Assembly: GCA_018969485.1 (NCBI GenBank)
Contig: JAGWYG010000011.1
Location: forward strand, 1-60,692
Source: Chloroflexota bacterium
GTDB lineage: Bacteria; Chloroflexota; Chloroflexia; Chloroflexales; Roseiflexaceae
Reading direction: 5' to 3'
Length of the DNA: 60,692 bases
Shown here: positions 4,931 to 24,273 of the stretch, in pieces
Layout of the letters: the number at the start of each line of letters is the position of its first letter
Position numbering within the stretch: position 1 is the first letter of the stretch
Notes under the pieces: model-generated
What the model saw: the letters and a program-made list of their open reading frames with translations, nothing else
What the model was told of the DNA's origin: nothing
Databases searched by the model: none
Program-made: the position numbers and the translations under genes

Positions 4931-6094
4931 CTACGGCAACACCCCGGTGTCCTGCAAGAGCTCCAGCGTGCCGGCGAGATCGCCCAGATCGTTCAGATCA
5001 ATGTCTGGCGTCTCGATGTCGGCCAGCGGCATCAGCGCCGGGTTGGCGCTGATGCCCGCGACCACCGGATACTCGTAGGTGCTGTCGCTGAAGTATTGCT
5101 GTGCTTCGGCGCCAAGAAGGTACGCGACGAACGCTTCGGCCGCCTGTGCCTTCCGGCTGGTGGCGATCACGCCGACGCCGGCGACGTTGATCAGCGCGCC
5201 CACATCACCACCGCTCAGGTAATGATTACGCGCCGGAAATGCCTCGCCCTGCTCGGCGATGAAGCTCCACAAGTAGTAGTGGTTCACGAATCCCACATCG
5301 ACTTCGCCGGCAGCGACCGCCTGCACGATCGCGCTGTTCCCTTCGTAGACCTTCGGCTCGTTCGCCAGGATGCCTTCGAGCCAGTTGCGCGCCGCATCCT
5401 CGCCTTCGGTGACGCGGTAGGCGGTGACGAAGGCCTGGAACGACCCGTTGGTCGGCGCCCAGCCGATGCGACCACGCCATGCCGGGTCGGTGAAGCCGTC
5501 GATTGACGTCGGCAGGTCGGCTTCCTGCACCGCGGCGCTGTTGTATACTACCACGCGCGCCCGCCCTGATGTGCCGACCCACAGGTTGTCGGACGACCGG
5601 AACCGGCTGTCGACGGGTTCGAGCAACGCGGCGGGGAGTGGCGCGAGACGTCCCGCGGCCGCGAGCGCACCCAGTGCGCCGGCGTCTTGCCCGTAGAATA
5701 CGTCTGCCGGGCTGTTGTCGCCCTCCTCGAGGATCAGAGCGGCCATCTCGGCGGTGTCGCCGTAGCGTACCGATGCCTGGATGCCGGTGGCAGCGCTGAA
5801 CTGCTCGATCAGCGGGCCGACGAGCTTCTCGGAACGCCCTGAGTAGATGACCAGCGGCTCGCTGTCGGCGACTGGCTCGGGGCGCTGGACGGCGGTGGCT
5901 TCGGGTGCGGCGGTGGCTTCGGGTGCGGCGGTGGCTTCGGGTGCGGCGGTGGCTTCGGGTGCGGCGGTGGCGCCGGGTGCGGCGGTGGCGCCGGGAACGG
6001 CGGTGGCGCCGGGTGCGCCGCTGCCGCAGGCGCTGATCAGTGCGATCAGCAGCAGCATGGTGGCAGGAACGGTCCAGCGGGGGGCGTTACGCAT
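4931..6094 (-). CDS. fbpA: Iron(III)-binding lipoprotein, FbpA-like
   Basis: Extracytoplasmic solute-binding protein that captures the ligand and delivers it to the permease. Residues 1-23 form a lipoprotein signal with lipobox LISAC and Cys23. They are followed by a low-complexity linker of seven GATA[AV]P/EATAAP hexapeptides (18-bp tandem repeat, about 5890-6015) that would tether the binding domain to the surface. The domain starts near residue 80 (PLVIYSGRSE). VNHYYLW, with two adjacent tyrosines, matches the iron-coordinating pair of FbpA-type proteins. It is the first gene of the operon, with a strong promoter just upstream. Substrate is inferred from the tyrosine pair and not tested. 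Confidence 0.9.
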   Translation of the reverse strand: MRNAPRWTVPATMLLLIALISACGSGAPGATAVPGATAAPGATAAPEATAAPEATAAPEATAAPEATAVQRPEPVADSEPLVIYSGRSEKLVGPLIEQFSAATGIQASVRYGDTAEMAALILEEGDNSPADVFYGQDAGALGALAAAGRLAPLPAALLEPVDSRFRSSDNLWVGTSGRARVVVYNSAAVQEADLPTSIDGFTDPAWRGRIGWAPTNGSFQAFVTAYRVTEGEDAARNWLEGILANEPKVYEGNSAIVQAVAAGEVDVGFVNHYYLWSFIAEQGEAFPARNHYLSGGDVGALINVAGVGVIATSRKAQAAEAFVAYLLGAEAQQYFSDSTYEYPVVAGISANPALMPLADIETPDIDLNDLGDLAGTLELLQDTGVLP

Positions 6095-6138
6095 GTCGCC
6101 TGGCTCCTGGAGTTTAGTACGAATGAAACGACGGTATT

Positions 6139-6167
6139 AGTATACCTTAATTACCACACTTTGTCAA
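6139..6167 (-). promoter_or_regulatory. Consensus sigma-70 promoter of the fbp operon with overlapping dyad
   Basis: On the minus strand TTGACA (6162-6167) and TATACT (6139-6144) are separated by exactly 17 nt. A short inverted repeat, GGTAT-N4-ATACC (6133-6146), overlaps the -10 and is a candidate site for an iron-dependent repressor. The region is conspicuously AT-rich compared with its surroundings. The repressor identity is inference only. Confidence 0.75.
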
Positions 6168-6210
6168 GCACAATCTTGCGTAACCGATCACACGGGAGGG
6201 GGAGACGACC

Positions 6211-7704
6211 ATGAGTGACGCGCCAGTCTATCGCAACCTGATCGGCGGCACCTGGCACGCCGCAGCCAGCGGGGCGACCTTTGCGAACCACAATCCAGCC
6301 GACACCGCCGACATCGTAGGCTACTTTGCCGATTCCGACGAGCGCGATGTCGTGGCAGCGGTGGCCGCGGCGCAGCAGGCCTATGCCAGTTGGCGGCTCG
6401 TTCCGGCGCCGAAGCGTGCCGAAATCCTGTACCGGGCCGGGCAACTCCTGATCGAGCGCAAGGAAGCCTGCGCGCGGGACATGACGCGCGAGATGGGCAA
6501 GGTGCTGAAGGAGACGCGTGGCGACGTGCAGGAGGCGATCGACATGATGTTCTTCATGGCTGGCGAGGGCCGGCGGCTGCACGGCCAGACCACGCCATCA
6601 GAGATGCCCAACAAATTCCAGATGTCGGTGCGGCAGCCACTGGGCGTCTGTGCCCTGATCACGCCGTGGAACTTCCCGATGGCGATCCCATCGTGGAAGA
6701 TGCTGCCGGCGCTGATCATCGGCAACACCGTCGTGATCAAGCCGGCGTCCGACACACCGCTGTCGGTCTACCATCTGGTGCAATGCCTGACCGACGCCGG
6801 GCTACCGCCGGGCGTAGTGAACATCGTCACCGGCAGCGGCGGCAAGGTCGGCGAGCCATTGATGCGCCATCCCGACGTGAAAGTCATCTCCTTCACCGGA
6901 TCGACCGAGATCGGCAGCCGCGTGGCGCGGGTCGGCGCCGAGGGCATGAAGCACGTATCGCTCGAGCTCGGCGGCAAGAACCCGATGATCGTGATGAACG
7001 ACGCCGATCTCGATCTGGCGGTCGAGGGGGCATTGTGGGGAGCATTCGGCACCACCGGGCAGCGCTGCACCGCCACGTCGCGCCTGATCGTGCAACGAGG
7101 CGTCGCGGCCGAACTGACGGCGCGGCTCGCGACACAGGCCGCGGCGCTGGCGGTCGGGCCCGGGCTCGATGAGCGCAACCAGGTGGGGCCGGCGATCAAC
7201 CGGGGACAACTCGAGACGGTCGAGCGCTACGTGCAGATCGGCGTGGCCGAGGGAGCCCGGCTGGTGTGCGGTGGTGCGGCGCTGCGTGATGGCCCATACG
7301 CCCGTGGATTCTTCCACCAGCCGACGATCTTCGCCGATGTGACCCGGCACATGCGACTGGCGCAGGAGGAGATCTTCGGGCCGGTGCTGTCGATCATCAC
7401 CGTCGAGGATTTCGATGAGGCGATCGACGTGGCCAACGACGTGCCCTACGGTCTGTCGTCATCGATCTACACCCGCGACGTCAATGCTGCGTTCCGCGCG
7501 ATGCGCGATCTGTACACCGGCATCGTGTACATCAACGCGCCCACGATCGGCGCCGAGATCCACCTGCCATTCGGTGGCACCAAGGGTACGGGCAATGGGC
7601 ACCGCGAAGCCGGCCAGCAGGTACTCGAGGTGTTCAGCGAATGGAAGTCGGTGTACGTCGACTTCTCGGGGAGCCTGCAGCGGGCGCAGATCGACAACAA
7701 CTGA
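6211..7704 (+). CDS. NAD(P)+-dependent aldehyde dehydrogenase
   Basis: Oxidises an aldehyde to the carboxylate with NAD(P)+. The 497-residue protein has the family layout: FTGSTEIG in the cofactor fold, general-base Glu252 in LELGGK, catalytic Cys286 in GQRCTA, and [10 protein letters not shown] near the C-terminus. [13 protein letters not shown] near the end resembles semialdehyde dehydrogenases acting on lysine or keto-acid intermediates, but the substrate cannot be read from sequence. A strong purine-rich Shine-Dalgarno (GGGAGGGGGAG) precedes the ATG. It is divergent from fbpA across a shared 116-bp regulatory region and stands alone on its strand. Confidence 0.92.
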
Positions 7705-7721
7705 TCGCTCGGCCAGCGGAT

Positions 7722-7761
7722 GCTCCGGGGCTGTGGCGCCGGCGTGCCGCAGCGCCGGAGC
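7722..7761. terminator. Long hairpin between convergent genes
   Basis: Arms 7722-7736 and 7747-7761 can form a stem of about 15 bp with a single mismatch and one G-T pair around a 10-nt loop, between the stops of the aldehyde dehydrogenase and the kinase. There is no T-run on either side, so if it terminates transcription it is an atypical bidirectional terminator. Confidence 0.45.
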
Positions 7762-7795
7762 CATCCGACCGCTGCGCGGTCAATTGGTGCCGGCG

Positions 7796-18615: not shown

Positions 18616-18677
18616 CTACCAGCGCCCGATGCCGCGTTCACGCAAGCTCACATACCGATTCGCTCCGATCACAATGT
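18616..18677 (-). CDS. radC: radC exon 4 (C-terminus)
   Basis: Sixty-two nt directly after the 3' end of intron C. The last base of exon 3 (C) plus AC from this exon makes the His codon. The exon then reads IVIGANRYVSLRERGIGRW and a TAG stop, which is the standard RadC C-terminus. This segment is not an independent gene; it makes sense only as the final exon. Confidence 0.9.
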
Positions 18678-18733
18678 GTCGAGTAGGCACAGAGCGCGGT
18701 GCGTGGTGGTACACGCCCGTCTCTCCATACCCC

Positions 18734-20065
18734 TCACCGAACCGGACGTGCATCTTTCGACGCATCCGGCTCTCCAGTCCTACGGTGGTGATCTGACGCG
18801 CCGCTCCTGTCTCCCCTCACGGTGATTCGTGCAGTCGTGCCGCGCACGCTGCGTGACTGTGCCTGGAGGATGAGCCGATGCCCACCACGATAGCAGTCGA
18901 CTGGCGTCGTGCGCAGCGCACGCGCGCCTGGTCCGACGACTCCACTCAGCCGACGCGCGGCCGTCCGGTGCGTGCAGCGCGTCTTGCTGGCGAACCAGCG
19001 CATCAGCCTCAGCCTGACATACCGCTCGCGCGCATGCCGGAGCGCGCGAGGCGTCGTCGCGGTGCCATGGTGTTCGGCCACAGCGACCAGCCGATGCAGT
19101 GCCCGCCGCACCGCAGCAACGCTGCGCCCGGTGGTGGCACGCCGCGTCAGCGCCTTGATTCGCCGACGCAGCCGCCGTTCGTCCGGATGGCTCCACGTGA
19201 TCGTCGTGCCACGGACGGCAGCGCCGCCGGTGCCGGCCGGCACGCGGGCGATGCGCACGGCCCGCTCGGGCAGCGTCAGCCCGAGGCGACCGGCGCACGC
19301 CTGGCGGAGTGCCTGGCACCGTCCGAGCGCACCGCTGCGCGATCCCGACCAGACTGCCACGAAGGCGCTGCCGCGCTGCCCTGGACGCGGGCCGTGCGCC
19401 GCGGCATCACGCGCACCAGCCGACCACCAGGCATCGATCTCGCGCAGGCAGAGTTGCCACAGCAACGCCGCGAGGCCGTCGTCGGGATGGGCCGCCTGCG
19501 GCGCCGCTGCCCGCTGCGTGCCGGCGGGAGCGGCGCGCAGCACCTGCCAGACCGCCGCGATGAACCGGGCGTCGGCGACGCGCTGGCGCAGCAGCCGCAG
19601 CGCGACGCGGGGCCGAAGCGTGCCAGCGCACGCAGCCAGATCGCCATGGATGACCCAGCATGCGGCGCGCGGCGCCGGGGGCGCGGCGCCAGCGTGCCCC
19701 GCGTCGCTCGGGATGGGCAGGCGGCACGTGGTGGCTGTACCGGCGCGCCCGATGATGATTGGCTCGAGCACCAGCTGAATCATCAGCCGGCGCTGCGCCA
19801 GACCAGCCACATGCGGTGCAGCCGCGCGCACTCCGGCGACGCCGGGCCGCATCGGCCGCTGCTCGTGCACATGCCCGCCACCCATCAGCCGGCACAGCGC
19901 GCGTGGCTGCGCCAGCCGTGCCGCAGCAACCTGCATCAATGGCGGCCAAGTCAACAGATCCGCGAGATTCGAAAACCGATGTGAGGGATCCGCGACAGCA
20001 CGTCGCGCCAGCCGTCGTCGCAGCCCCGAGACCTGCATCCGACACAATTCCGTCGGCGTCATCAT
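18734..20065 (-). CDS. Intron C-encoded protein: reverse transcriptase/maturase relative without active site
   Basis: Open frame in domain IV of intron C. The N-terminus (TELCRMQ, then HRFSNLADLLTW) matches group II intron proteins. The RT region keeps the first catalytic Asp (HGDLAAC, about 140-146), but the PQGG region reads HPDD and YADD reads AVWS (about 237-240, nt 19346-19357). The GFRP region is lost. A basic maturase-like segment follows (RRIKALTRR, RLRLMRWFASK). The start is one of two adjacent ATGs at 20065 and 20062 with GGAGG upstream. The frame lacks a stop where such proteins normally end and runs through domain V to 18734. It probably cannot support reverse transcription; a splicing role is possible but unproven. 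Confidence 0.75.
   Translation of the reverse strand: MMTPTELCRMQVSGLRRRLARRAVADPSHRFSNLADLLTWPPLMQVAAARLAQPRALCRLMGGGHVHEQRPMRPGVAGVRAAAPHVAGLAQRRLMIQLVLEPIIIGRAGTATTCRLPIPSDAGHAGAAPPAPRAACWVIHGDLAACAGTLRPRVALRLLRQRVADARFIAAVWQVLRAAPAGTQRAAAPQAAHPDDGLAALLWQLCLREIDAWWSAGARDAAAHGPRPGQRGSAFVAVWSGSRSGALGRCQALRQACAGRLGLTLPERAVRIARVPAGTGGAAVRGTTITWSHPDERRLRRRIKALTRRATTGRSVAAVRRALHRLVAVAEHHGTATTPRALRHARERYVRLRLMRWFASKTRCTHRTAARRLSGVVGPGARALRTTPVDCYRGGHRLILQAQSRSVRGTTARITVRGDRSGASDHHRRTGEPDASKDARPVR
18739..18772 (-). ncRNA. Domain V of group II intron C
   Basis: 34-nt hairpin beginning GAGCCGGATGCG and ending CACGTCCGGTTC, with a GAAA tetraloop, the catalytic AGC triad at the base and the usual bulge. 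This is the most conserved element of the ribozyme and is intact here. Confidence 0.95.
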
Positions 20066-20648
20066 ATGAGCCTCCGCGTGAACGACATCGGCCGTAGAAC
20101 CTGCCGCCCTTCGCCACGTACCGGGCTTTCCCCGGCGCAGACTACTCCGGCGGCTCCGCCAGTGTGCAGGCATCGAGGCGTCATACCCGCCGTGCCCCCA
20201 CTGGGGACAACCTGCACACCTTCCCGTGTTGTGTGTATCGCCGTCATCGCATGAAGGAAGACGCGCCCTATCCGCCATGCCCTGCACCAGGCAGGGGTGA
20301 CAGCCCCGATCCGATGCTCCTGCCGATCGGATCGTGCCCCTGGATCCCCGGGCGCTCCCGCAGGCAGGCTGTCGCTCGCCCATCGTGTCCAGCCACACGG
20401 GCGAGATGATGATATCCGGCGGGTCAATCGGGCGTTCACACCTGTTCGTCATCAACACACTCAGCCTGGCAGTCGGCGACCGCGCCGGACGGCAGTCGCC
20501 ACCACGTGTTCCCAGGGCTTCGGACCATGGGGGGTATCACACCCATCGCCCGCCTGGTCAGGCTCGGGTCCGGCAGGAACCCGGCTCGTCACCGAGCATT
20601 GCGACACACACCTGAGGGGGCAGCCTGCGCCACCCCACCACGGCGCAC

Positions 20649-20745
20649 GATCCAGAACATCGACATCGAGGAGCTTGCCTGCCTCGATGACCTGTGCAGT
20701 CACTGCTGCATCTTCGGGCGATGGCGTCGGATCGCCACTGGGATG
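20649..20745 (-). CDS. radC: radC exon 3 (JAMM motif and helix)
   Basis: Ninety-seven nt between introns B and C. It reads [15 protein letters not shown] and then [17 protein letters not shown] plus one base of the next codon. This is the strongly conserved RadC block holding the second zinc-ligand His and the Ser/Asp part of the JAMM motif. It begins exactly where exon 2 ends in VHN. Confidence 0.95.
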
Positions 20746-20786
20746 GTCGGGTAGGCGCATGCCGTCACCGGCGCGCACCCCCCTGA

Positions 20787-20820
20787 GAACCGGACGTGAC
20801 CGTTTCCGGTCATCCGGCTC
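20787..20820 (-). ncRNA. Domain V of group II intron B
   Basis: 34-nt domain V hairpin with a GAAA tetraloop, beginning GAGCCGGATGACC and ending CACGTCCGGTTC. It differs from that of intron A only in the tetraloop (GAAA against GCAA). Confidence 0.95.
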
Positions 20821-20894
20821 AAGCCTCTCGAACGCCCCATGACGGGACGCGACCGACGGCCGTGGCGCGTGCCACGGCCAGCATGCCTGCACGA

Positions 20895-20990
20895 TCATGC
20901 GGTGTCGCCGTCGCATGCCACCTGCCGTCGCACCGATCGTGTGACGGGCAGCGAGCCATGGGAGGCCGCACCGGCACCGGCTGGTGCCAT
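20895..20990 (-). pseudogene. Relic N-terminus of intron B protein
   Basis: A 31-codon frame starts at an ATG preceded by GGAGG and reads [13 protein letters not shown], resembling the start of the intron A protein (MTAALPAGATSHGV). After about 15 residues the similarity ends and the frame soon stops. The rest of the protein gene is deleted. This shows that intron B once carried the same type of protein. Confidence 0.7.
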
Positions 20991-21608
20991 CAACTGCCCT
21001 GCCTCCATCCGACGGTAGGTCACCGGGCCTCGTGCCGAGAGACCAGGTGGAAGTCTGCCCGCTTTCGCGTGGGGTGATCTTGCGGATCGCGCAACCCCTA
21101 TCCTGGTGATTACCACCAGGCATTCGCTTGCTCCACCATCCGTTACCCGCACCACGTTCGCCACACCTCGCGGCTGGCGCACCCTGACGGGAGCGATACG
21201 GGCTTACCGTGTTCATCGCATGCAACCGGATGGGTGAGGTCCGCTCTCTTCGCCGGTGGTGTCGTCGGTCCGTGTCAGGGCACATAACAGACCCTGAACC
21301 CACCACAGCGCCAACTGGCGCGAGCCCCGGTCGCATCGCGGGCTCATGCATCGTCGCGGCGTTTATCGAGCGTTCGCCTGTGCTGACCATACCATCCACC
21401 CTTGCCCCGCGCCGCCGGATGCGGGCGGCGACACCCCGACCTCACGGCCATGGCTGCCAGTCGCACGACTGCGGGATACGTCGTCGGCGGGCTTCGCCGC
21501 GGTGCGTTGCCACACCCCGCCGCCGCCCCAGGGTACTGCTGACGGAACAGCAGGCTCAATCACCCGTACGGGCGTCGAGCAATTGCACGCGACGCCTGCA
21601 CGTCGCAC

Positions 21609-21658
21609 GTTATGCACGATGATCATGGCTGCGCTGTTGAGGCGCAGCGCTTCCTTGA
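21609..21658 (-). CDS. radC: radC exon 2 (50-nt mini-exon)
   Basis: Fifty nt between introns A and B. With the last T of exon 1 it reads FKEALRLNSAAMIIVHN, matching the RadC segment before the JAMM motif and ending with its first histidine. The exon ends on a codon boundary. Confidence 0.94.
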
Positions 21659-23173
21659 GTCGGGTAGGGAGCCAGCGTCGCCAGTGCCTCCCCCCCTGAG
21701 AACCGGACGTGACCGTTGCCGGTCATCCGGCTCAAGCCTCGCGAACGCCCCCGATGGGGACGCGGCTGCCCGCTGGAGGTCTGCGCCGGCGCGGCCTGCC
21801 GGCGCCGTATGGTATGGATCGTGCCCTGACCGGCCAGGCCGTGGAGCCGCGAGGCGCACGATGGCGGCATCGCGCGCGCGGTAGAGCGCCAGGCCGTGGC
21901 CAGCATGCTCGCCGTGAAAACCGCGCGTGCCATCGGCACGGCAGAAGTACCGGGCGAAGATCCAGCCATGGGACTTGTTGGGGTGACGGCGCTTCGCCCA
22001 GCGCCACACCACCTGGCTCAGCGCGTGGTCGACGTCGGCGAACGCCCGCCTGCCGGTGACGAACCGGTGTTGGCGTGCCCAGCGGCGCAGCGGCGGATTG
22101 AGCACCTGCACCAGGCGCCCGGCCGAACTGCCGCGGTTGCACCGCACCAGCGCGCGCAGCTGCGTCAGGAGCTGGCGCATGCTGGTACGCGCCGGGCCGA
22201 CGACGAGCCGGCCGCGCACGCGTCGGATGTGCTGGCCGAGAAACTCGAATCCGCCGCTGACGGGTCGGATCACGAGGCCGGCGCGATCGGGCGCGAGGCC
22301 GCAGGCATCCAGGGCCTGCCGCACCCGTGGCATGATCAGCGCCTCGAGCGCCTCGCGCGAGGCGCCGGCGACGATGAACTGCCCGGCGTGCCCAAGCAGG
22401 ACGTGGGCATGCTGATCGTCGGCCAGCATCGGCGCGGATCGGCGCAACTGCCGTGCGACATCGTCGAGCAGCAGATCGACCAGCAGCGGGGCGATGATCC
22501 CCGGCACGCCGCCGGAGTCGCCGCCGGCGCTTCCGGCGCCGAGAAGCTGCCCCGACCGCGACCAGGCGCGTCGCAGCAGCGGATCCAGCGGCATGCGCGC
22601 CAGCCAGTGTGGGCTGAGGCGCGCCGCACCTGCGGCCAGATCGCCGATCAGGACCCAGCGCAGCTGCCGCTGCGTGGCCAGCAGCGCGTGCGCGCGCGCG
22701 ATCATCGTCGCACGATCCGGCAGGCCAGCCGGCGCGCCGACGACGGGCTCGAGGGCGAGGCGCTGCAACCAGAGCATCGCCCGATCGCGCAGCGTCGGCA
22801 CCCCGATCCGGCGCACCGTCCCATCTGCCTGCGCCACCATGATCCGGCGCACCGGCGCTGGCCGATAGCCATGCCGCCGCAGGCGCCGCACCGCCAGCGC
22901 CCGCGCCGCCACCGTCGGCCAGAGCTCCCGATCCATGCCCGCGACGCACCCATCGGGCGCGTCGGCCGCGCGGGCCACCGCCAGCGCCCGACCGCTGAAC
23001 GAGTGGGTCAGCAACCATTGCAGCGCCCGGACCCTGCCGGGTCGCCCCTCCTGAGTAGCCTTCACGATACGAGCCTGGAGCCGTCGCACGACGTGATCGA
23101 CGCGTGCCCGATCGATCGGGCGCCGGTCGCCCACCCCATGGGAGGTGGCACCAGCAGGCAGTGCTGCCGTCAT
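21623..23173 (-). CDS. Intron A-encoded protein: maturase-like reverse transcriptase with YADD lost
   Basis: 517-codon frame in intron A starting at an ATG with AGGAGGA 7 nt upstream. The N-terminal RVT_N-type region is clear (VVRRLQARIVKA, ALQWLLTHSFSGRAL). In the RT core the first Asp is kept (IGDLAAG, about 176-182), PQGG reads GVPG (222-225) and YADD reads HAGQ (262-265, nt 22379-22390). The GFRP block is eroded. Downstream features are well kept: GFEFLG (308-313), VLNPPLRRWARQHRF near 357 and RWAKRRHPNKSHGWI near 391, which are the thumb and maturase parts. The frame has no stop at the usual end and runs through domain V into exon 2. The protein is probably RT-dead but possibly still a splicing cofactor, perhaps serving intron B too. 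Confidence 0.85.
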   Translation of the reverse strand: MTAALPAGATSHGVGDRRPIDRARVDHVVRRLQARIVKATQEGRPGRVRALQWLLTHSFSGRALAVARAADAPDGCVAGMDRELWPTVAARALAVRRLRRHGYRPAPVRRIMVAQADGTVRRIGVPTLRDRAMLWLQRLALEPVVGAPAGLPDRATMIARAHALLATQRQLRWVLIGDLAAGAARLSPHWLARMPLDPLLRRAWSRSGQLLGAGSAGGDSGGVPGIIAPLLVDLLLDDVARQLRRSAPMLADDQHAHVLLGHAGQFIVAGASREALEALIMPRVRQALDACGLAPDRAGLVIRPVSGGFEFLGQHIRRVRGRLVVGPARTSMRQLLTQLRALVRCNRGSSAGRLVQVLNPPLRRWARQHRFVTGRRAFADVDHALSQVVWRWAKRRHPNKSHGWIFARYFCRADGTRGFHGEHAGHGLALYRARDAAIVRLAAPRPGRSGHDPYHTAPAGRAGADLQRAAASPSGAFARLEPDDRQRSRPVLRGGGTGDAGSLPDSRKRCASTAQP

Positions 23174-23786
23174 CTGCAATTCCTCCTGAGACGGTTCGTC
23201 AGACATTCTCGTGATGCGAGACCCGGCGGACGTCTGCCCGCTTTCGCGTGGGGTGATGTTGCTCGCGCGCAACCCCTATCCGGGCGATTACCGCCCGGCA
23301 TTCGCGTGTTCCGCCATCCTGTCCCCGCAGCGCCATCGGGTGCCCTCGCGGTGCCCTACCCGCGCGACGCCAGTGACGCGGGAGCGCTACGGGATTGCCG
23401 TGTTCAGCCCGAGAACCCGGATGAGTCTGGTCCGCTCTTTCCGCCGGCGGTCTGATGTGTCCACGACCGGGGAAGATCCCGCCCCGGTGCCGACCGCAAT
23501 GCCTGTCTGGCGAGGCCGGTGCGCATCGCTGGCCTGTGCTCGGTGACGGCGTGTGCGAGCGTTCGCATGTGCTGACCATTCCCATCCCTCCTTGCCCCTA
23601 TCCGCCGGATGCTGGCGGACACAGCCGCGCCTCGCGGCGCCGCTGCCGGCCTGTCGGCCGCGGGATACGTCGTCGGCGGGCTCGCCACGGCGTGTTGCCA
23701 TGCCGCGGCACCGCCCAGGAGACTGGTGGTGGAACACCAGGCTCGCACGTGGCGAGCATGTCCTCAGGCCGCTTGACACGTCGCAC
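21659..23786 (-). mobile_element. Group II intron A in radC, with degenerate encoded protein
   Basis: 2128-nt intron in the sense orientation. The 5' end is GTGCGACGTG and the 3' end is CCTACCCGAC, with a candidate branch A at -7. Domain V is at 21700-21733. EBS1 is GGATCTT at 23473-23479 (intron nt 308-314), in a 9-nt loop closed by the 7-bp stem ACCGGGG/CCCCGGT. It pairs over 7 bp (including G-U pairs) with GAGATCT at the end of exon 1. It encodes the protein at 21623-23173. Removal joins RIGEI to FKEAL in frame. A second GTGCGAG at 23748 was considered as the 5' end but would break the RadC frame and sequence. Confidence 0.94.
21700..21733 (-). ncRNA. Domain V of group II intron A
   Basis: 34-nt hairpin beginning GAGCCGGATGACC and ending CACGTCCGGTTC, with a GCAA tetraloop. 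All positions expected for catalysis appear intact, so the ribozyme core does not look decayed even though the protein does. Confidence 0.95.
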
Positions 23787-24273
23787 AGATCTCACCGATG
23801 CGTACGACCGAACTGTGCAGGCTGCCGACGTAGACCGTCTGGATTCGCAGTACCCGGTTACGGGTGTCGAGGCAGATGGTGCGCAGCTGTTCCTGATCGA
23901 GATGGCTCATCTCGAGCTGTACCAGCTGTGCCGCGTCGGCGGCGTTGCGGATCTGCGGACGCTCCTGCGCCGCATGCAAGGTGAGGCGCCGTCCGATCTC
24001 GAGCGCCGCCTTGAGCTGTGCTGCCTTGGCGCTGCCCAGTCCACGCTTGCGGGCGAGCTCGGCGACGCTGATGCGCTGCAACCCATCCCAGCTTCCCACG
24101 TCGCGCAGCAGTTGCTGGGCGATGGTGGTGGCGCTGGCGCCGGCGATGCCGACGCGCAGCAGGATGGCGATCAACTCGGCGTCCGACAGTGCCGTCGCGC
24201 CGAGGGCGATCAGGCGCTCACGCGGCTTCTCGTGATCCGGCAGCTCGCGCAAGCGCACCGGGTGTTCCGACAT
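23787..24273 (-). CDS. radC: RadC (JAMM/MPN+ domain protein), exon 1 of a four-exon gene
   Basis: First exon of radC, a conserved gene named for DNA repair whose biochemical role is still debated. It encodes RLRELPDHEKPRERL, the helix-hairpin-helix region (GLQRISVAELARKRGLG) and the start of the JAMM domain (VYVGSLHSSVVRIGEI). It then runs directly into intron A. Unspliced translation stops at 23764 and lacks every metal ligand. Joined to exons 2-4 (21609-21658, 20649-20745, 18616-18677) it gives 231 residues, normal for RadC, with VHNHPSGD intact. The ATG at 24273 was chosen over 24291 because GGAGGA lies 7 nt upstream of it. Confidence 0.95.

Follow-up and report, generated by a model that had tools for sequence, protein, structure and literature searches.

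The window examined here, 60,692 nucleotides of DNA from a Chloroflexota bacterium of the Roseiflexaceae (contig JAGWYG010000011.1, positions 1-60,692, assembly GCA_018969485.1), carries on its minus strand a radC gene that is split into four exons by three group II introns, A, B and C. All three introns occupy identical radC sites in a sister species, an uncultured Chloroflexi bacterium known from a LaPlata metagenome-assembled genome (CAIQIY010000687.1), and are therefore taken to be vertically inherited. We propose that the protein encoded by intron A is very probably a splicing-only maturase, one that would have lost retrohoming and been retained for the splicing of radC. This interpretation is based on the loss of the YADD, PQGG and NSYGFR motifs and of the HNH domain from a protein in which the RVT_N and GIIM (domain X) regions are kept under the strongest constraint.

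Loss of active-site motifs in the intron A protein

As the original prediction from the sequence had stated, the intron A protein is recognizable as a group II intron reverse transcriptase (RT): it matches the Pfam families RVT_N and GIIM, and the GFEFLG, LNPPLRRWARQ and RRHPNKS stretches are all found in it. No Pfam match to RVT_1 was obtained for this protein, although RVT_N and GIIM match, and the NCBIfam model of mobile-type group II RT/maturases, TIGR04416, scores 105 bits, below its cut-off of 300. A MAFFT alignment with nine relatives places HAGQ exactly onto YADD/FADD and GVPG onto the PQGG block, and the minus-strand codons agree with the former; the sister species has HHGQ and AMPG at these positions. 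Both replacements had been called correctly, while the list of losses was too short. The same alignment reveals that the NSYGFR..RS..DA fingers block is largely deleted and that the entire C-terminal HNH endonuclease domain is absent. The aspartate of the first palm motif is retained (GDL for GDI). We infer from these residues that the protein is inactive as an RT. The intron A proteins of the two species are about 70% identical, and the simplest reading of HAGQ in one and HHGQ in the other is that the loss of the active site predates the species split.

YADD or a close variant is present in 79 of the 79 other relatives, which are loci from a scan of a genome collection; no relatives were found among viral contigs. 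The intact introns of other Chloroflexota (L011-L018) encode proteins of the same family, 35-40% identical to the intron A protein, and have similar RNA domains, but they carry YADD/FADD, most of the PQGG block and HNH. In a phylogenetic tree the two A proteins fall among the Chloroflexota intron-encoded proteins (IEPs) at an open fork (Shimodaira-Hasegawa-like approximate likelihood-ratio support 86) on a stem of 2.35 changes per column, and their exact place is uncertain because of their unusual amino acid composition. One A-type protein, L019 (G062:C3305), has FADA for YADD but an unaltered PQGG block and might represent this loss at an early stage.

An AlphaFold2 model of the intron A protein built from 51 sequences has a predicted local distance difference test score (pLDDT) of 72 overall and about 90 in domain X. 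In this model the palm hairpin around HAGQ is predicted to survive (strands 258-262 and 265-270). Foldseek ranks two group II intron complexes, 8fli and 6me0, first for the model, and phmmer identifies 6me0 as the closest solved chain by sequence (6.6e-69). We take 6me0 to be a Thermosynechococcus elongatus intron. The active relatives of the intron A protein carry HNH, and T. elongatus introns belong to CL/IIB1 (PMC2882425). The intron A protein is probably of the chloroplast-like (CL, IIB) type.

Selection on the intron A protein

Ratios of nonsynonymous to synonymous substitution rates (dN/dS, omega) were estimated from one species pair, the window and its sister species, with the Nei-Gojobori method (NG86) and with a maximum-likelihood codon model. 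NG86 gave 0.04 for RadC, which differs between the two species at six residues, and 0.46 for the intron A protein. The corresponding maximum-likelihood values were 0.033 for the RadC exons and 0.297 for the intron A protein (likelihood-ratio statistic 74.5, p = 6e-18), indicating purifying selection on the latter. Neutral evolution across the whole frame, which the original prediction had set against itself beforehand, is thus rejected (omega 0.30). Fitted apart, the parts of the protein gave omega values of 0.28 for RVT_N, 0.33 for the RT core and 0.16 for domain X. With a shared synonymous rate, the RT core has an omega of 0.37 and RVT_N plus domain X one of 0.20 (likelihood ratio 11.8, p = 6e-4), the pattern predicted for a protein in which mobility was lost and a maturase role selected.

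The frame is open for 516 codons, in line with the more than 500 first reported, but its length is weak evidence in GC-rich DNA, where the other frames across the same stretch are also long (428 and 519 codons); it is dN/dS that carries the real weight. In control analyses the other two sense frames of the intron A open reading frame (ORF) gave omega values of 1.5 and 2.9, and intron B and nt 1-600 of intron A gave about 0.8 to 1.9 in all frames. One antisense frame of the ORF has an omega of 0.34, yet contains 6-7 stops; this value is probably the mirror of the third positions of the sense frame. The sole indel in the ORF between the species is one codon. A frame open by chance was considered for the intron A protein and is rejected on dN/dS and the wrong-frame controls.

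The radC gene and its introns

In silico excision of introns A, B and C yields a complete 231-amino-acid RadC frame in the window and in the sister species alike. All three introns begin with GTGCG and end with CTAC(C/T)CGAC, in keeping with the GUGYG and AY ends of group II introns, and the exact removal of intron A restores the frame. A 3' splice site of intron A directly after CTAC was tried and rejected, as it gives the wrong RadC frame; a cut after CTACCCGAC gives the right one and leaves an A at -7. No second piece of radC exists elsewhere in the host genome (4.02 Mb in 247 contigs, 95.6% complete), and in genomes of the host's taxonomic class radC is mostly a single near-full-length frame. 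The restored frame suggests that the host transcript would be spliced at all three introns. Introns A and B had both been named originally and are both present; the third intron, C, with its degenerate maturase, and the identity of the host gene had gone unmentioned. The coordinates of all features are listed in Table 1.

Table 1. Positions of radC, its introns and their features in the window
Feature	Position	Strand	Details
radC exon 1	23787-24273	-	ATG to ..VVRIGEI plus first base of a Phe codon; Pfam UPF0758_N and N-terminal RadC part
Group II intron A	21659-23786	-	2128 nt; 5' GTGCGAC, 3' CTACCCGAC; Rfam RF02012 at 23594-23741, RF00029 (domains V-VI) at 21659-21735
EBS1 of intron A	23474-23479	-	GGATCT, pairs with AGATCT at the end of exon 1; 6 bp, one G-U
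Shine-Dalgarno AGGAGG	23182-23187	-	5' of the intron A ORF; kept in the sister species
Intron A protein (predicted RT-dead maturase)	21623-23173	-	516 codons; ATG 23173, stop 21623-21625
RVT_N domain, intron A protein	22880-23116	-	Pfam PF13655, 5e-17
HAGQ at YADD position	22379-22390	-	Codons CAC GCC GGG CAG (22390-22379); HHGQ in sister species
GIIM / domain X (maturase), intron A protein	21944-22177	-	Pfam PF08388, 5.5e-13
radC exon 2	21609-21658	-	FKEALRLNSAAMIIVHN; RadC frame restored by intron removal
Group II intron B	20746-21608	-	863 nt, ORF-less; RF02012 at 21404-21554, RF00029 at 20746-20822
EBS1 of intron B	21283-21288	-	GTTATG, pairs with CATAAC; 6 bp
ORF-start remnant in intron B	20849-20990	-	Comparable to MTAALPAGATSHG; alignment with A reaches A nt 764, beyond the A start codon at nt 614
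radC exon 3	20649-20745	-	RadC frame restored by intron removal
Group II intron C	18678-20648	-	1971 nt; RF00029 at 18678-18774; RadC frame restored; same site in sister species
EBS1 of intron C	20340-20346	-	GATCCAG, pairs with CTGGATC; 7 bp
Intron C protein	18734-20065	-	Predicted second RT-dead maturase of another intron lineage; start is an in-frame ATG chosen here
radC exon 4	18616-18677	-	HIVIGANRYVSLRERGIGRW, stop TAG

Each intron has a domain V with an AGC triad and a GNRA-type loop and a domain VI with a bulged A (RF00029, 57-63 bits), and the putative branch-point A lies at -7 in all three. The elements corresponding to exon-binding site 1 (EBS1) start at similar places, intron nt 303-321, and pair with the 5' exon over 6-7 bp. 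In the sister species EBS1 of intron A reads AGATCT, and its pairing with intron-binding site 1 survives the base change between the species. Identity between the two species is 90-96% over nt 1-600 of intron A, 97% in domains V-VI and 77% in the ORF; for intron C it is 89-92% over nt 1-583 and 66% in the ORF region. In A and C alike, the ribozyme parts are thus more strictly conserved than the proteins. Domain V of intron C contains a U-A to C-G change between the species that, as judged by eye, keeps the stem.

Split radC genes were also encountered outside this species pair. In a member of another genus of the same family (G057), a group II intron with a tail of the HNH type interrupts radC between HPSG and D; the two parts lie at L158 1-443 and L159 about 7690-7792, with the assembly break inside the intron. 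In radC-like genes of two Nitrospira and one proteobacterium, introns that belong to the IEP family of A and retain YADD are inserted in antisense orientation at the HNHPSG motif (L099 and L091, about 5363-7627; L051, 5363-7620). The HNHPSG motif looks like a recurrent insertion target.

Introns B and C

Aligned with intron A, intron B is 69% identical over nt 1-764 and 77% identical over the last 145 nt. The alignment extends past the start codon of the A protein, from which it follows that intron B keeps a stub of the ORF. By this comparison intron B is an ORF-deletion relative of intron A. In bacteria, an intron that lacks an ORF almost always has a related intron as its neighbor, and the IEP of the latter may act on it in trans (PMC4424553); examples of bacterial IEPs that splice ORF-less relatives in trans have been described (PMC4424553, PMC2882425). 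In view of this precedent and of the relationship between the two introns, the intron A protein probably splices intron B in trans.

The intron C frame gave no Pfam match and matches TIGR04416 with an E-value of 0.006. A two-sequence profile of the intron C protein matches 571-amino-acid IEPs from the same order (G014, E 1.5e-40, and G015) and one from the same family (G059), all of which carry YADD, PQGG and HNH. In the intron C protein the fingers block is missing, as are PQGG, YADD and HNH, but an N-terminal TELCRMQVS..RFSNLADLLTWPPL stretch remains. In a four-sequence search it matched the A-type profile with E-values of 0.002-0.05 only, and for this reason we keep it out of the A lineage. 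Its maximum-likelihood omega is 0.21 (p = 7e-23), with 1.7 and 2.5 in the wrong sense frames. Judged by its motifs and these rates, it is a second, separate RT-dead maturase under purifying selection. Its structure, predicted from two sequences, has a pLDDT of 35, too low for use.

Proposed function and alternative explanations

We propose that the intron A protein has lost RT and endonuclease activity, and with them retrohoming, and that it would help to fold intron A and excise it from the radC pre-mRNA. It would bind its own intron and may also splice the ORF-deleted relative B in trans, and intron C would probably rely on the RT-dead maturase that it encodes itself. In that case the cell would need one or both of the two maturases to make RadC.

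Several observations weigh against this proposal. The omega estimate is limited to two species, and the constraint on the RT core (0.37) means that the selected function of the intron A protein is not that of domain X alone. The frame also crosses domains V-VI and extends 36 nt past the intron into exon 2 (21623-21760, minus strand), and is likewise open in the sister species, which is odd for a tuned splicing factor. Lastly, no intact A-type intron protein was found in the host genome, as the original prediction required, but a draft assembly of 247 contigs, 95.6% complete, could miss such a copy.

It is improbable that the introns are self-splicing and the intron A protein a decaying remnant, open by chance in GC-rich DNA. 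The sense-frame omega of 0.30 and the maturase-like domain pattern strongly disfavor this explanation, as no such signal is seen in the other sense frames or in the non-coding intron RNA, and the Shine-Dalgarno sequence and start are conserved, with only the one-codon indel between the species. It would nevertheless account for the well-conserved ribozyme cores and the very long stem branch of the A pair; the other frames in the region are long as well, and C.te.I1 of Clostridium tetani seems to function without an IEP (PMC4424553). Continued mobility through an RT supplied in trans is highly improbable. T. elongatus IEPs do mobilize ORF-less introns in trans (PMC2882425), and the host genome has a single RVT_1 match, a fragment on a 3-kb contig (L001, G000:C161) with the first palm motif intact and the rest altered. 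However, that contig carries neither GIIM nor domain V, the three domain V matches of the host genome are those of introns A, B and C, a further clear GIIM protein was not found in it, and the same three sites in both species speak for vertical inheritance.

We also consider it unlikely that the intron A protein has taken on another cellular role, in radC regulation or elsewhere, with splicing help secondary. The strongest constraint falls on RVT_N and domain X, the gene still lies inside its intron, and the intron RNA is conserved; what would fit such a role is the constraint on the RT core and the long, accelerated stem. Group II-like RTs that have been domesticated for DNA repair are known, but these are described as reverse transcriptases (PMC12337344), whereas the intron A protein lacks the active site. 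A splicing-only maturase thus appears to be the best explanation for the intron A protein.

Relation to known systems

A 2015 review by Zimmerly and Semper knows of a single bacterial IEP that lacks YADD and other motifs, that of O.i.I2 of Oceanobacillus iheyensis, an intron of the mitochondrial-like (ML) class with RadC exons (PMC4424553). The intron A protein resembles it in being a bacterial, RT-dead IEP with an open frame in radC, and a maturase-only role was proposed there too (PMC4424553). The intron A protein is probably CL-type, and whereas selection on O.i.I2 was deduced from the lack of stops (PMC4424553), here it was measured. Unlike the O.i.I2 case, the present radC contains three introns, two RT-dead proteins and an ORF-less intron. 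The intron A case looks like an independent CL-type parallel of O.i.I2 in the same host gene. No further bacterial RT-dead IEP was found in the open-access literature searched, subscription papers being mostly outside the search. To our knowledge the present case is the second in bacteria, and both are in radC.

Organellar maturases such as MatK of the trnK intron are similar in having lost RT motifs and kept domain X, in residing in housekeeping genes and in their proposed action on other introns. MatK, however, belongs to a group IIA intron and aligns in motifs 5-7 only (PMC4424553), while in the intron A protein RVT_N and the palm still align and the host is bacterial. In T. elongatus, TeI4h and TeI4c, with IEPs of a probably related type, occur with ORF-less TeI3 introns, and ORF-less derivatives are spliced in trans by a related IEP; those introns are mobile and few lie within genes, and the natural YAGD of TeI4h is a point change rather than an RT rebuilt under selection (PMC2882425).

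Taken together, radC of this lineage may harbor a non-mobile splicing system in which the A maturase serves A and B, and perhaps C, and a maturase of separate lineage serves C. We offer this wider picture tentatively; if it holds, the organellar passage from a mobile intron to a splicing factor shared among introns would have an independent counterpart in bacteria, one that might even control RadC. Bacterial group II introns are thought to persist by moving, and non-mobile forms confined to splicing are described as rare and of short duration in bacteria. Here, two lineages appear to have lost RT activity within one gene, with selection measurable in two species and an ORF-less relative alongside. 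A selfish intron protein is proposed to have turned into a splicing factor both in organelles and in the origin of the spliceosome, and this radC gene may provide a tractable bacterial model of that change.
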